From positions 3,133,105 to 3,197,104 of the forward strand of contig NZ_ABIZ01000001.1 of assembly GCF_000172155.1 (NCBI RefSeq): a stretch of 64,000 bases of DNA. The letters are read 5' to 3'. This DNA comes from Verrucomicrobium spinosum DSM 4136 = JCM 18804 (lineage in GTDB: Bacteria; Verrucomicrobiota; Verrucomicrobiia; Verrucomicrobiales; Verrucomicrobiaceae). Shown here piece after piece: positions 9,147-54,847 of this stretch. Under the pieces are notes generated by a model. The model was not told the origin of the DNA. It searched no databases and saw only the letters and a program-made list of their open reading frames with translations. The number at the start of each line of letters is the position of its first letter. The stretch's first letter is position 1. The translations under genes and the position numbers were made by a program.

Positions 9147-10382
9147 CTACTTCAGCGCGGCGATACGGCGGCAGACTTCTTCCACATTGGCGCGACTGTT
9201 GAAGGCGCTGATGCGGAAGTATCCTTCGCCAGCGCTGCCGAAACCGCTGCCAGGAGTGATCACCACATTCGCTTCGTTGAGCATCTTGTCGAACATCTGC
9301 CAGCTGGTGAGGCCTGCGGGGCAGCCCACCCATACGTAGGGTGCGTTGACACCCCCAAACACGGAGAGTCCGGCGTTCTTGCAGGCTTCCACTAGCAGGG
9401 CGGCATTGCCCATGTAGTGCTCGATGAGAGCCTTCGTCTGGGACTTGCCTTCGTCCGTGTAGAGAGCCTCGGCACCCTTTTGGACGATGTAGCTGGCACC
9501 ATTGAACTTGGTGCTGTGGCGGCGGGACCACAGCGGGTGCAGGGCCTGGGCTTCGCCATTCTTCTTGCGGCCCATGAGGGACTTGGGAATGACCACGTAG
9601 GCGCAACGCACACCGGTGAATCCGCCGTTCTTGGAGAAGCTACGGAACTCAATGGCACAGTCGCGAGCCCCTTCGATTTCAAAGATCGAGTGAGGGATCG
9701 TAGGATCCTGGATGAAGGCTTCGTAGGCGGCGTCGTAAAGCAGCACGGAGCCGTTCTCGCGGGCATACTTGACCCATGCCTCAAGCTGGGGGCGGGTGGC
9801 GACGGCACCGGTGGGGTTGTTGGGGTAGCAGAGGTAGATCAGGTCGGCTTTCTCCTGGGGAATGTCGGGCACGAAGCCGTTCTCGGGCGTGCACTTCAGG
9901 TACACAAGACCTGCGTAAGCGCCGTTTTCGTCTGCCTCTCCGGTGTTGCCGATCATGACGTTCGTGTCCACGTACACAGGGTACACGGGGTCGGTGATGG
10001 CGATGGTGTTGCCCTGGCCGAAGATGTCCAGGATGTTGCCGGTGTCGCACTTGCTGCCGTCGCTGATGAAGATTTCATCCGCCTCGATCGGCAGGCCGCG
10101 GGCCTTGTAGTCGTTGTCGGCAATGGCGTTGCGCAGGAAGTCGTAGCCCTGTTCCGGACCGTAGCCCTTGAAGGTGGAGCGATTGCCGAGTTCATCCACC
10201 GCCTCGTGCATGGCGTAGCGCACGGCCTCGGGAAGGGCCTCGGTCACGTCACCGATGCCGCAGCGGATGAGGCGTTGGGCGGCTTCCGGGTTGCCTTCGG
10301 TGAAGGCCTTGACGCGGCGGGCGATTTCCGGGAACAGATAGCCAGCCTTGAGCTTGAGGAAGTTTTCGTTGATGAGGGCCAT
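9147..10382 (-). CDS. dapL: LL-diaminopimelate aminotransferase
   Basis: PLP enzyme that converts tetrahydrodipicolinate directly to LL-diaminopimelate in the short DAP/lysine route found in Chlamydiae, Verrucomicrobia, plants and cyanobacteria. The ATG at 10382 gives [20 protein letters not shown], the canonical start; an open frame further upstream is not expected to be translated. Motifs of fold-type I aminotransferases are present: [30 protein letters not shown] and the PLP-binding Lys in [12 protein letters not shown]. At 411 residues the length is normal. It is monocistronic, with its own terminator downstream and the GxxExxY inverted-repeat unit upstream. Presence of DapL rather than the DapC/D/E route supports the Verrucomicrobia placement. 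Confidence 0.95.
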
Positions 10383-10482
10383 GTAGGGAGCGGGTGATAG
10401 AGGGGAGGCAGAATAGCGAAGGATGAGAGAATGCCAAGTGATTCTAGAAGCTGTCCCAAGCCCGAGGGGAGATGGTGGGTTT

Positions 10483-10514
10483 TTAACCACAGAGGGCACA
10501 GAATTTCACAGAGT
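10483..10514 (+). repeat. Left arm of inverted repeat flanking the GxxExxY gene
   Basis: A 32-bp element containing CCACAGAGGGCACAGA and TTTCACAGAGT. Its reverse complement occurs at 11009-11040 with 30 of 32 identities. The arm begins about 100 bp beyond the dapL start codon and ends 63 bp before the GxxExxY ATG. Confidence 0.9.
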
Positions 10515-10577
10515 TTTGGCTACAGAACTGCATTATTTTGTGGACGAGTGTCCGACTTTCCTTTCATTCCGGAAGCC

Positions 10578-10991
10578 ATGACGTCCTTACCGCAATTGTT
10601 CCCCACAAGGCCTATGGAGCAGCTCAACGCCGTGACGGCAAAGGTGATCGGTGCGGCAATGAAAGTCCATACCCGACTCGGGCCGGGTCTATTGGAGTCG
10701 GCCTACACCGCTTGCCTGGCTTATGAGCTTAGAAAGGGCGGGCTTAAGACTCTCGCTGAAGTTGCCTTGCCGATCGTTTATGATGAGGTTCAACTCGATG
10801 TTGGCTACCGGCTGGACCTGCTCGTTGAAGATTGCGTTGTAGTGGAGCTGAAATCGGTCGAAAAACTCTCGTCGCTCCACCAGGCGCAACTTCTGTCTTA
10901 CTTGAAGCTTAGCGGTATCCGGTTGGGCCTGTTGATAAACTTTAATGTAACCAGCCTAAAAAATGACGGGATAAGGAGGATCATGAACTAA
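10578..10991 (+). CDS. GxxExxY family protein (PDDEXK-like fold)
   Basis: Member of the GxxExxY family (TIGR04256, related to PDDEXK_3), 137 residues, function unknown. The naming motif is seen in GPGLLESAY. A nuclease-like core follows: YRLDLLVEDCVVVELK, with Asp and the Glu-x-Lys pair in the positions expected for a PD-(D/E)xK active site, then the conserved helix LHQAQLLSYLKLSG and LGLLINFN. The ATG at 10578 (MTSLPQLFPTRP) is preceded by GGAAGCC; an in-frame opening further upstream overlaps the repeat and looks non-coding. The gene and little else lies between two near-identical inverted-repeat arms, which suggests it moves or is maintained as a unit. Confidence 0.88.
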   Translation: MTSLPQLFPTRPMEQLNAVTAKVIGAAMKVHTRLGPGLLESAYTACLAYELRKGGLKTLAEVALPIVYDEVQLDVGYRLDLLVEDCVVVELKSVEKLSSLHQAQLLSYLKLSGIRLGLLINFNVTSLKNDGIRRIMN

Positions 10992-11008
10992 GGGGGCTGC
11001 TGTTCAGT

Positions 11009-11040
11009 ACTCTGTGAAACTCTGTGCCCTCTGTGGTAAA
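11009..11040 (-). repeat. Right arm of inverted repeat flanking the GxxExxY gene
   Basis: Reverse complement of the left arm at 10483-10514, identical at 30 of 32 positions. It starts 18 bp after the GxxExxY stop codon and ends 24 bp before the stop of the convergent DUF421 gene. With the left arm it defines a unit of about 558 bp. I saw no obvious short direct target duplication immediately outside the arms. Confidence 0.9.
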
Positions 11041-11063
11041 TTCTTCATCGCATACCCTTTTTC

Positions 11064-11537
11064 TCACTCTTCCTTCATCTTCTGCACCACGCTGATCTCC
11101 CCATTGTTCTCCAGCACCGCGAGCCGCACTTCCCCTGGGGAGGTGCAGCCGTGGCGGCGGAGGGCGAGTTCCAATTCGTGCCGGGTGAGTTTGGCGTCGG
11201 ACATGATTGCGTCATCCACCTGGCCCTTGTGAATGAGGACCTGAGGTTTGCCTTCAATGAGTGTCTCCAGCTTGCGGCTTTTGAAAGTGGCCAGGCCAAA
11301 GAGGTAGTTGAGGCCTACCAAGGTGCCAGCGAGGACGAGGCCGCCGGTGATGGAGTTGTCTCCTCCATTCATGGAGTTTTGCACTGCGTTGGAAAGAAGC
11401 AGGAGCAGGACGAGGTCGAATGGCGCGAGCTGTCCTACTTGCCGCTTTCCGGTGACGCGTAACATGAGGAGCACCAGCACGTACACCACCGCAGCGCGGA
11501 CGACGAATTCCCACCAGGGCAGGGAGATGGACCACAT
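11064..11537 (-). CDS. DUF421 (YetF-type) membrane protein
   Basis: Small inner-membrane protein of the DUF421/YetF family, 157 residues. Three predicted membrane segments (about residues 9-26, 40-52 and 62-82) carry the family signature LMLRVTGKRQVGQLAPFDLVLLLLLSNAVQ. A soluble domain follows with the second family motif LIEGKPQVLIHKGQ and LTRHELELALRRHG. The biochemical function of the family is not established; some Bacillus members are linked to spore or stress phenotypes. The ATG at 11537 sits 105 bp after the stop of the sugar isomerase on the same strand, with that gene's terminator in between, so it is probably transcribed separately. Confidence 0.88.
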   Translation of the reverse strand: MWSISLPWWEFVVRAAVVYVLVLLMLRVTGKRQVGQLAPFDLVLLLLLSNAVQNSMNGGDNSITGGLVLAGTLVGLNYLFGLATFKSRKLETLIEGKPQVLIHKGQVDDAIMSDAKLTRHELELALRRHGCTSPGEVRLAVLENNGEISVVQKMKEE

Positions 11538-53363: not shown

Positions 53364-53380
53364 GGATATCGGGAACCGGG

Positions 53381-53834
53381 AAGAGCCGGTCCCGGCTCTT
53401 GGGTGCGCTGAGTGGTGCGGGGGCAAGAACCGAGACGGTTCTTCTACCATGGATGATGGACGCTGCAGAGAGGGTAGAAGAGCCGTCCCGGCTCTTGGGT
53501 GCGCTGGGCGGTGCGGGGGCAAGAACCGAGACGGTTCTTTTACCATGGATGATGGACGCTGCAGAGAGGGTAGAAGAGCCGTCCCGGCTCTTGGGTGCGC
53601 TGGGTGGTGCGGGGGCAAGAACCGAGACGGTTCTTCTACCATGGTTGGTGTACTCCGCAGAGAGAGTAGAAGAGCCGTCCCGGCTCTTGGGTGCGCTGGG
53701 TGGTGCGGGGGCAAGAACCGAGACGGTTCTTCTACCATGGTTGGTGTACTCCGCAGAGAGAGTAGAAGAGCCGTCCCGGCTCTTGGGTGCGCTGGGTGGT
53801 GCGAGGGAAAGAACCGAGACGGTTCTTCTACCTT
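53381..53834. repeat. Tandem array of 96-bp repeats, five copies
   Basis: CCCGGCTCTTGGGTGCGCTG recurs at 53391, 53487, 53583, 53679 and 53775, a constant 96-bp spacing. Every unit contains two small hairpins, AGAGCCG-TCC-CGGCTCT and AAGAACCG-AGA-CGGTTCTT, which are themselves imperfect reverse complements of one another within a larger palindrome starting GGTAGAAGAGCCG and ending CGGTTCTTCTACC. Spacers differ between the first two units (GGATGATGGACGCTGCAG) and later ones (GGTTGGTGTACTCCGCAG). Because 96 is a multiple of three, long frames cross it on both strands; these are artefacts. It contributes the TAG stop of the nuclease gene at 53828-53830. Confidence 0.95.
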
Positions 53835-54847
53835 GGCTCTTCCGCCTCGCCCGGAGTCGCTTTGGCCTTCTTACGTGCGCGAGACGTTGCGGCACCGCGA
53901 TCAATCTTGATGACCAGCGGACGGTGGTCACTCGCGTCATAGAAGTTCGGCGGATCATACACGAATGACTCCGGCTTCTTGATGTCGCTCTGCAACGCCC
54001 GATTCACGAAGCAATAGTCGAGGCGCGAGTAGTGGTCGGCGGCATCCCAAAAGTGGGTCCATGTTTCGCCCCGGGAGTCGCGCAGCCTGACATCCATCAT
54101 GGAGACATCAGTGCCGGGGACACCTTCGATCTCGACAAGAGCGGCTTCGTGTTTGCTCTCGTTGAAGTCGCCGTAGGCGAGGAGTCGGGTGGCGGGCTCG
54201 GTCGTCAAAATAGACTCGATGTGCCGGCGCAGGAGATGGGCCTCGTTCCGGCGCATCAGCTTCTGATCCATGCCGGGGACCTCCCGCTGGGACTTGAAGT
54301 GGACTCCCAAGAAGCGCACCTCGAAGTTGGGTCTAAGAGCGACGGTAGCGTCCAGGATGCCCCGTTGCATGGGGAGAATCACGTCCCCGATGTGGTACTT
54401 CAGCTCTGATTGAGAGTTTCGAGAAGTGATGGGAAACCGGCTGAGGAGGGCCAGTCTGCGAGTGGGATCACCGCCATTTCCCATCTCCGAGTGCGGCAAA
54501 TCGATGTCGCGGACCTTGAGCCGTGCCTGTAGGTCCGCCAGATCTTCGGCGTCGCCAATCTCGCAGACGCCAAGAATATCGGGCTTAATCGTGGCGAGGA
54601 TCTCGATGAGCGGGGCGATTTCCTTGTCGGGCTTGAGAGCCTTCTCCTGGATTGCTCCATCCACGGAGCGGGGCATCTTCAGGTAGTTGCGCAGGTTGTA
54701 AGCGCAGAAGGTGACGATGCGGTTTCGCTCGTCGAACCCGGCAGACGTAGATTCTGCTTGGGAGTAAACCGGCAAGGTTGTGGTCGCGAACAACCACAAC
54801 CAGGCGCTCGCGAGAAACCACTGACTCCCAAAAAGAAACCGCTTCAT
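53828..54847 (-). CDS. Secreted endonuclease/exonuclease/phosphatase family protein
   Basis: EEP-superfamily phosphohydrolase, 339 residues, with a signal peptide (FLFGSQWFLASAWLWLFA, cleavage near VYSQA). Motifs: FCAYNLRNYL (Asn), LGVCEIGDAEDL (metal Glu), FLGVHFKSQREV (His), LLAYGDFNESKHE (Asp/Asn), YCFVNRAL and DASDHRPLVIKI (catalytic Asp-His). Substrate may be nucleic acid, a sphingomyelin-like lipid or inositol phosphates; not decidable. Its start codon lies inside the hairpin that ends tatA, and its stop in the 96-bp array. C-terminal tail is basic then Glu/Pro-rich. Confidence 0.85.
   Translation of the reverse strand: MKRFLFGSQWFLASAWLWLFATTTLPVYSQAESTSAGFDERNRIVTFCAYNLRNYLKMPRSVDGAIQEKALKPDKEIAPLIEILATIKPDILGVCEIGDAEDLADLQARLKVRDIDLPHSEMGNGGDPTRRLALLSRFPITSRNSQSELKYHIGDVILPMQRGILDATVALRPNFEVRFLGVHFKSQREVPGMDQKLMRRNEAHLLRRHIESILTTEPATRLLAYGDFNESKHEAALVEIEGVPGTDVSMMDVRLRDSRGETWTHFWDAADHYSRLDYCFVNRALQSDIKKPESFVYDPPNFYDASDHRPLVIKIDRGAATSRARKKAKATPGEAEEPR

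Follow-up and report, generated by a model that had tools for sequence, protein, structure and literature searches.

The window, i.e., the 64,000-nucleotide stretch of Verrucomicrobium spinosum DNA analysed here, contains a 558-bp arm-gene-arm unit located between a gene on the minus strand which, following the preliminary description, we take to be dapL-like, and a DUF421-like gene (Table 1). The two arms had been described as a near-perfect inverted repeat boxing a single gene, and this description holds: they are complementary at 30 of 32 positions (94%), lie 494 nt apart and enclose only one recognised gene, which encodes a GxxExxY protein of 137 residues. Each arm is composed of three direct units with spacings of 9 and 10 nt, mirrored in the right arm. 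The gene coordinates were taken from positions 1450-1860 of locus L024 (the window locus) plus the stop codon, the start codon being our choice in an open frame that extends further upstream. Orthologs of the dapL-like and DUF421-like genes are present in two congeners, designated G001 and G003, where they flank a junction without a GxxExxY unit.

Table 1. The GxxExxY unit of the window and its flanking genes.
Feature	Coordinates	Strand	Remarks
Left inverted arm	10483..10514	+	32 nt; cores from outside to inside at 10488 (CACAGAG), 10497 (CACAGAA) and 10507 (CACAGAG)
Right inverted arm	11009..11040	-	three units mirrored; spacings 9 and 10 from outside
GxxExxY / PDDEXK_3 gene	10578..10991	+	137 aa; D80, E90 and K92 intact
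Flanking dapL-like gene	9147..10382	-	ORF; 5' end towards left arm; start codon is our choice
Flanking DUF421-like gene	11064..11537	-	ORF; 3' end towards right arm; name from the preliminary description

Arm pairs in the window were scored with one ungapped scorer, which admits 300-800 nt between the arms. The window arm pair scores 54; the only two other pairs in the window that score at least 30 (33 each) lie in a tandem array at approximately 53.4-53.8 kb. No inverted pair of at least 30 emerged when the window was dinucleotide-shuffled ten times. A chance origin of the boxing is ruled out by the absence of pairs from these ten shuffles and by the shuffled and distal controls at other loci, which returned 0-2 pairs (see below). 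The tandem array itself (53380-53836) consists of 4.8 copies of a 96-bp unit and includes self-complementary segments such as AAGAGCCGTCCCGGCTCTT and AAGAACCGAGACGGTTCTT.

GxxExxY proteins are distributed across many phyla and, to our knowledge, have no known function. The window protein is a clear member of the TIGR04256 GxxExxY family (149.1 bits against a cut-off of 35) and matches PF13366, PDDEXK_3, with 140.6 bits (cut-off 22). The AlphaFold2 model of the protein (pLDDT 93.4, pTM 0.86) has as its best solved structural match SSO0001 (4ic1; Z 9.3, rmsd 3.7, 99 aligned residues), presumably a Cas4-type protein, and it also matches 3ijm, named as a restriction-endonuclease-like fold (Z 7.8, rmsd 3.2, 97 aligned residues), while Foldseek alone gave a weak best hit (E 8.4e-3). 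Nucleases of PD-(D/E)XK type are among the best structural matches of the model. On the basis of this model, the window protein is predicted to have a restriction-endonuclease-like, or PD-(D/E)XK, fold, and all three residues of the corresponding catalytic triad are present. The position of D80 is kept in all 197 aligned members of the family, 185 of which retain the full D-(E/D)-K triad. A role as an anti-phage defence component was also considered: PADLOC returned only weak Cas4 matches (E 0.003) and PHROGs a single family of unknown function (E 0.008).

The preliminary description had proposed looking for arms around other GxxExxY genes, and arms are present at most of those examined. The V. 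spinosum genome (8.22 Mb, one contig) holds four PF13366 matches, all of which are boxed by inverted arms. The four boxes share a common design, with arms of 29-35 nt separated by 394-494 nt, and their arm sequences are all different, being built on CACAGAG units in the window, ACAGAATTA at L025, CACTAAT at L026 and CACGAAGG at L027. Sampling was extended to 38 relatives, 33 of which possess matches (up to seven PF13366 matches per genome), and to 145 genomes of the phylum (69 with matches). The 123 Verrucomicrobia loci considered represent the search returns together with all listed matches of the relatives down to an E value of 4.5e-25, and after removal of two loci with a short flank, an inverted pair scoring at least 30 was found at 90 of the remaining 121, and one scoring at least 34 at 82. 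Shuffled flanks of these loci gave no such pair, and distal flanks gave two of 113 at the lower threshold and one of 113 at the higher. Direct repeats also reach 30 at 36 of the 121 loci, because each arm is itself a run of units and additional repeats occur in some flanks.

Boxing extends well beyond this phylum. The best 80 of the named main-clade matches listed derive from methanogen-related archaea, Acidobacteria, Chloroflexi, Bacteroidota, Proteobacteria, Spirochaetota, Planctomycetota, Gemmatimonadota, Dojkabacteria and others, although single host names among them may be wrong because many are metagenome bins. Six of these were dropped, and among the 74 scored loci from the best 80 listed, 53 exhibit an inverted pair of at least 30 and 40 a pair of at least 34, as opposed to none in shuffled flanks and none of 67 in distal flanks; direct repeats of at least 30 occur at 18 of the 74. 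Some of the pairs at named loci are not unit-like (e.g., those at L268, L287, L252 and L253). (For an earlier count, five of 63 loci had been dropped.) The arms generally comprise about three direct units of 8-11 nt, with core spacings that peak at 9 nt, followed by 10 and 8 nt. Paired CRCNRAG cores in the expected orientation were detected upstream of the gene at 51 of 71 loci, downstream at 50 and on both sides at 40, compared to 15 and 15 of 71 in the wrong orientation and three and two of 67 in distal flanks.

The presence of arms is linked to the state of the catalytic triad. Among scorable members, arms with a score of at least 30 accompany 142 of the 183 genes with an intact triad, leaving 41 below that score, and one of the 12 genes with a degenerate triad (Fisher 2e-6); at a threshold of 34 the corresponding figures are 121 of 183 and one of 12 (Fisher 1e-4). 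These twelve degenerate members (L054-L056, L169, L178 and L180-L186) represent fewer than twelve independent events, since most of them look like one subfamily, which is possibly domesticated. All lack a scored arm pair with the exception of L054, which is flanked by strong CACAGAT arms.

The sequence of the arms, in turn, follows the lineage of the protein. Across 87 loci (three of 90 having been dropped), arm similarity rises with protein identity (Mantel rho 0.32; none of 500 permutations reached this value, the best being 0.09), and the same holds for pairs with less than 60% protein identity (rho 0.28; 0 of 500 permutations, best 0.14). When each left arm was compared to all right arms of 126 units, i.e., those scoring at least 30 after exclusion of arms of 60 nt or more and of a few hand-picked loci that are not unit-like, its own partner was the best match in 99 cases. 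Inspection of the tree by eye revealed clade-specific units, with CRCRGAG in most of the main clade, and CRCTAAT, CACGRAA, CRCAAAAAG and ACAGGATT in others, while units also vary within the main clade (L031, L066, L067, L068 and L072 being exceptions). The clade carrying ACAGGATT, designated clade F, was defined as the common ancestor of twelve seeds picked with their arms known and encompasses 15 loci (support 0.956); the three loci thereby added to the seeds have ACAGGATT-like arms too, and L170, which lies outside the clade, has a loosely similar arm. The suggestion in the preliminary description that the protein recognises the repeat thus gains indirect support, because arm and protein co-evolve, the two arms of a unit match each other and arms are mostly gone where the triad is lost.

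Arms also occur away from the genes. A search of the complete V. spinosum genome with the motif of the window arms identified further copies, at 23 places with at most two mismatches (the two window arms included) against three for the reversed pattern, some of these matches appearing to be due to chance and devoid of the arm design. A 17-mer of the clade-F arm, also allowing two mismatches, is present in 54 copies in V. spinosum, 70 in G001 and 58 in G003, and in none or few in many relatives, its reversed control giving 0 or 1 per strand. Single ACAGGATT arms numbering at least five were found in 14 of the 15 genomes with a clade-F gene compared to three of the 23 without (Fisher 9e-7, a value which overstates independence because the 38 genomes are related); counted by genus, the figures are seven of eight with the gene and none of 13 without. 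The three exceptional genomes with many arms and no clade-F gene are G005, G015 and G021, each from a genus where some other member carries the gene; for all 23 genomes, absence of the gene was judged from matches down to E 4.5e-25. A second class, CACGGAA, gave mixed results: G013 and G011, which possess the cognate gene, contain 20 and 11 copies, respectively (reversed control 2 and 1), and G037, where none of the four genes examined is cognate, contains 44 (reversed control 9). Furthermore, the pheS-pheT gene, i.e., the GxxExxY gene located between pheS and pheT, has ACAGAATT arms in V. spinosum and ACAGGATT arms in G001 and G003, and the abundance of the ACAGAATT variant (117, 78 and 100 copies in V. 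spinosum, G001 and G003, respectively, partly overlapping the ACAGGATT class at two mismatches) does not track the present allele.

Twenty chosen dispersed places were inspected by eye, and all looked like single arms of the clade-F class, in some cases stacked with arms of other classes; no inverted partner of that class was seen in the stretch viewed around any of them. For 14 of the 20, the same-strand stop codon of a long ORF is situated at most 36 bp from the outer end of the arm, and for two an opposite-strand stop lies within this distance of the inner end. Folding of three arms as single-stranded DNA yielded energies of -0.3, -1.6 and 0 kcal/mol, which do not improve on those of shuffled sequences. 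Gene-less arm pairs were considered as the dispersed form and rejected: two-armed periodic elements numbered at least one each in 217 kb of the V. spinosum genome and 212 kb of G003, a census that is a lower bound because the periodicity filter missed arms of mixed spacing, and triple-unit runs of the tested cores were found only in the arms of gene-bearing units. Gene-less pairs do exist at L006, L012 and L023, but each ACAGGATT copy inspected is, by eye, a lone arm. When congeners were compared over up to 120 kb, the single arms viewed looked conserved, shortened or decayed, and no clean new single-arm insertion was detected. At several places (L023 at C1:7843802 of V. spinosum, L004/L013 at 1055551-1055731, L010, L012, L310 and L311), two arm classes are stacked or nested around short cores, several of these with CACAGAG outside and ACAGAATTA inside.

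Orthologous sites were compared for signs of gain, loss and exchange of the units. The junction orthologous to the dapL-DUF421 interval of the window (10440-11064), which the preliminary description had proposed to compare, is devoid of the unit in both G001 and G003, and is occupied there by another repeat element: in G003 (L087) an inverted pair of period-7 arms (AACTTCAAAAACCAAAATTCAAACTTCAA) with 182 nt between them, and in G001 (L088) a sequence similar to that of G003. A stretch at the G003 junction may represent a decayed right arm of a GxxExxY unit. At the L032 site, G001 carries arm, gene and arm, while V. spinosum and G003 have the right arm alone at the corresponding position, a difference among three species that may reflect either gain or loss of the gene.

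Synonymous divergence of the units is discordant with that of their neighbours in both directions. At the L026 site, the V. spinosum and G003 proteins are identical and the unit has a dS of 0.02 compared to 0.28 for the neighbouring gene, while relative to G001 synonymous sites of the unit are saturated and the neighbouring gene has a dS of 0.26. At the L027 site, the unit dS between V. spinosum and G003 is 0.09, against 0.33 and 0.43 at the neighbours. The pheS-pheT gene of V. spinosum is saturated relative to G003 and has a dS of 1.5 relative to G001, the corresponding values for pheS being 0.43 and 0.31. In 50-bp bins, identity drops at the arms, from mostly 88-98% to mostly 50-80%. Moreover, the V. 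spinosum pheS-pheT gene groups as sister with its counterpart in G006, which belongs to another genus and has the gene at this junction as well (75% identity; support 0.984), and not with the genes of its congeners (52%). Given this dS discordance, the drop in identity at the arms and the grouping with G006, the cassettes seem to have been replaced in place. Residence at a site can also be long: twelve of the 15 clade-F loci are located at pheS-pheT, all in one family (L025, L043, L130 and L149 among them), and five of ten clade-B loci at the L026 site, the site-residence lists for clades B, K and M having been compiled manually from the tree. Inspection by eye revealed no target duplication. 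The earlier proposal of a minimal mobile or self-maintaining unit therefore stands in part: absence from congeners, a single arm against a full unit at one site, and independent divergence speak for it, while long residence and the lack of a recognised target duplication speak against mobility, and free mobility of the unit is only partly supported.

We consider it probable that the GxxExxY genes and their arms constitute a nuclease-repeat system that operates in the manner of REP-RAYT pairs (repetitive extragenic palindromes and REP-associated tyrosine transposases), using an unrelated enzyme and repeats that do not form hairpins. According to Nunvar et al. (2010; PMC2817692), RAYT genes lie between two inverted REPs with which they co-evolve, diverge faster than the genes around them while their position is kept, and correlate with REP abundance. 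Likewise, the GxxExxY gene is flanked by inverted repeat copies, shows greater divergence than the adjacent genes while retaining its position, and co-evolves with its repeat (the Mantel rho of 0.32 given above); repeat abundance tracks the cognate gene in one class, with a second class being mixed and one variant not tracking the present allele. The enzyme, by contrast, is of the predicted PD-(D/E)XK fold (PDDEXK_3), whereas RAYT is a HUH/Y1 tyrosine transposase, and the repeat here comprises non-folding direct units of 8-11 nt whereas the REP is a palindrome. Since the shared features are combined with an unrelated enzyme and non-hairpin repeats, the system is a functional analogue of REP-RAYT and does not belong to it. 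A gene with a co-evolving dispersed repeat is a known arrangement, and none of the parts of the present case is homologous to those of the known example.

Under this reading, the GxxExxY protein would recognise the tandem-unit arm of its own clade, a step that we regard as likely from the sequence correlations described above. The protein would probably also cut or nick DNA at or beside the arms; we lean towards this step, with less assurance than towards recognition, because the triad is conserved and arms are lost when it is lost. Repair of the break could leave or copy single arms in intergenic DNA behind genes, and could allow arm-gene-arm to be replaced or gained at arm-bearing sites, a homing-like conversion which we advance tentatively, at somewhat less than even chances. 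The unit would thereby maintain itself in place more than it jumps. It resembles homing endonuclease genes, as a small nuclease gene is present or absent at a conserved site, cassettes seem to be replaced as a whole, and at one site (L032) relatives without the gene hold a single arm, which the protein would be predicted to recognise. Homing endonuclease genes reside inside their own target gene or intron, whereas the GxxExxY gene is intergenic between inverted arms, and its product is a predicted nuclease with putative cutting activity.

The best surviving alternative is that of a minimal autonomous transposon, in which GxxExxY is the transposase, the arms are terminal inverted repeats and the 558-bp unit jumps. 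The unit indeed shares with IS-type elements its inverted ends, an enzyme gene and a compact size, and the several units per end resemble protein-binding sites; its absence from the dapL-DUF421 junction of two congeners, its sporadic spread over phyla and the up to seven PF13366 matches per genome among the 38 relatives are also what would be anticipated. This reading nevertheless appears unlikely, as twelve of the 15 clade-F units have remained at pheS-pheT across a family, target duplications were not recognised, the right arm at the L032 site is common to relatives without the gene, and the 20 inspected dispersed copies are single arms and not unit copies.

A scenario in which the arms owe their spread to an enzyme acting in trans or to ordinary recombination, with GxxExxY as a passenger or cargo gene between them, is decidedly less probable than transposition. 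Arms are dispersed without the gene and could be spread by another enzyme, and two unrelated families, GxxExxY and the four-helix bundle PF05635 (see below), occupy similarly built boxes; a passenger would, however, show neither a match between arm and protein clade nor a near-absence of arms around degenerate members, and both are seen. An RNA-level element, whose arms pair in the transcript to govern mRNA stability or excision and whose repeat identity is kept by base pairing, fits the agreement between the two arms of a unit and the occurrence of an S23/PF05635 protein in a 23S rRNA intervening sequence elsewhere, yet we hold it to be highly improbable given that a stem needs no direct units of 8-11 nt, that the 20 dispersed copies inspected are, by eye, single arms with no inverted partner of their class in the stretch viewed, that the three tested arms do not fold as single-stranded DNA, and that arm identity tracks the nuclease clade. 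Fast vertical evolution alone, in which the unit is a long-established gene that has a regulatory repeat of its own and neither moves nor homes, is equally improbable: it accords with pheS-pheT residence across the family, and Nunvar et al., in the passages cited, interpret a similar RAYT pattern as accelerated evolution (PMC2817692), but it conflicts with dS values discordant both ways (0.02-0.09 against 0.28-0.43 for V. spinosum and G003 at two sites, and saturated or 1.5 against 0.26-0.43 elsewhere), with the grouping of the V. spinosum pheS-pheT allele with another genus at the same site, and with presence or absence at two sites (dapL-DUF421 and L032).

A similar organisation was observed for a second protein family. 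Genes of PF05635 (23S_rRNA_IVP, a four-helix bundle) in the same relatives are boxed at 17 of the 24 scored loci (L097-L126, six of 30 having been dropped) at a threshold of 30, with none in distal or shuffled flanks and two with direct repeats. Their arms have a best period of 7 nt at 18 of the 21 loci that score at least 29, and follow protein similarity (rho 0.31; 0 of 500 permutations). According to PMC4990558, a 23S rRNA intervening sequence in another bacterium codes for an S23/PF05635 protein. The boxed PF05635 genes make a general class plausible. As a broader and more tentative proposal than homing-like conversion, both systems might belong to an unnamed large class of selfish nuclease-repeat systems in bacteria and archaea, in which a small nucleic-acid-binding protein reads inverted tandem-unit arms by a lineage-specific code, homes into or copies its arms, distributes lone arms downstream of genes and exchanges whole cassettes between species at fixed chromosomal sites; such a class would have arisen at least twice (GxxExxY with units of 8-11 nt, and an S23-type four-helix bundle with units of 7 nt) and be convergent with REP-RAYT.

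Open-literature passages on GxxExxY contain no mention of repeats around these genes, and searches of the open literature returned nothing for PDDEXK_3, the arm strings only in unrelated papers, and nothing on point otherwise. If GxxExxY is the recognition and cutting partner of the repeats, its function becomes directly testable, and families of dispersed intergenic repeats gain a likely author. The family would then also constitute a natural set of small nucleases with many arm specificities for reading a protein-DNA code, and the REP-RAYT way of life would have evolved with an unrelated enzyme. IS200/REP-type transposase genes themselves coexist in the genus, as a Y1_Tnp gene (PF01797, 84 bits against a cut-off of 23) is located in an insert of G003 (C106, approximately 64971-65802, inside L204) that is absent from the orthologous place in V. 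spinosum.
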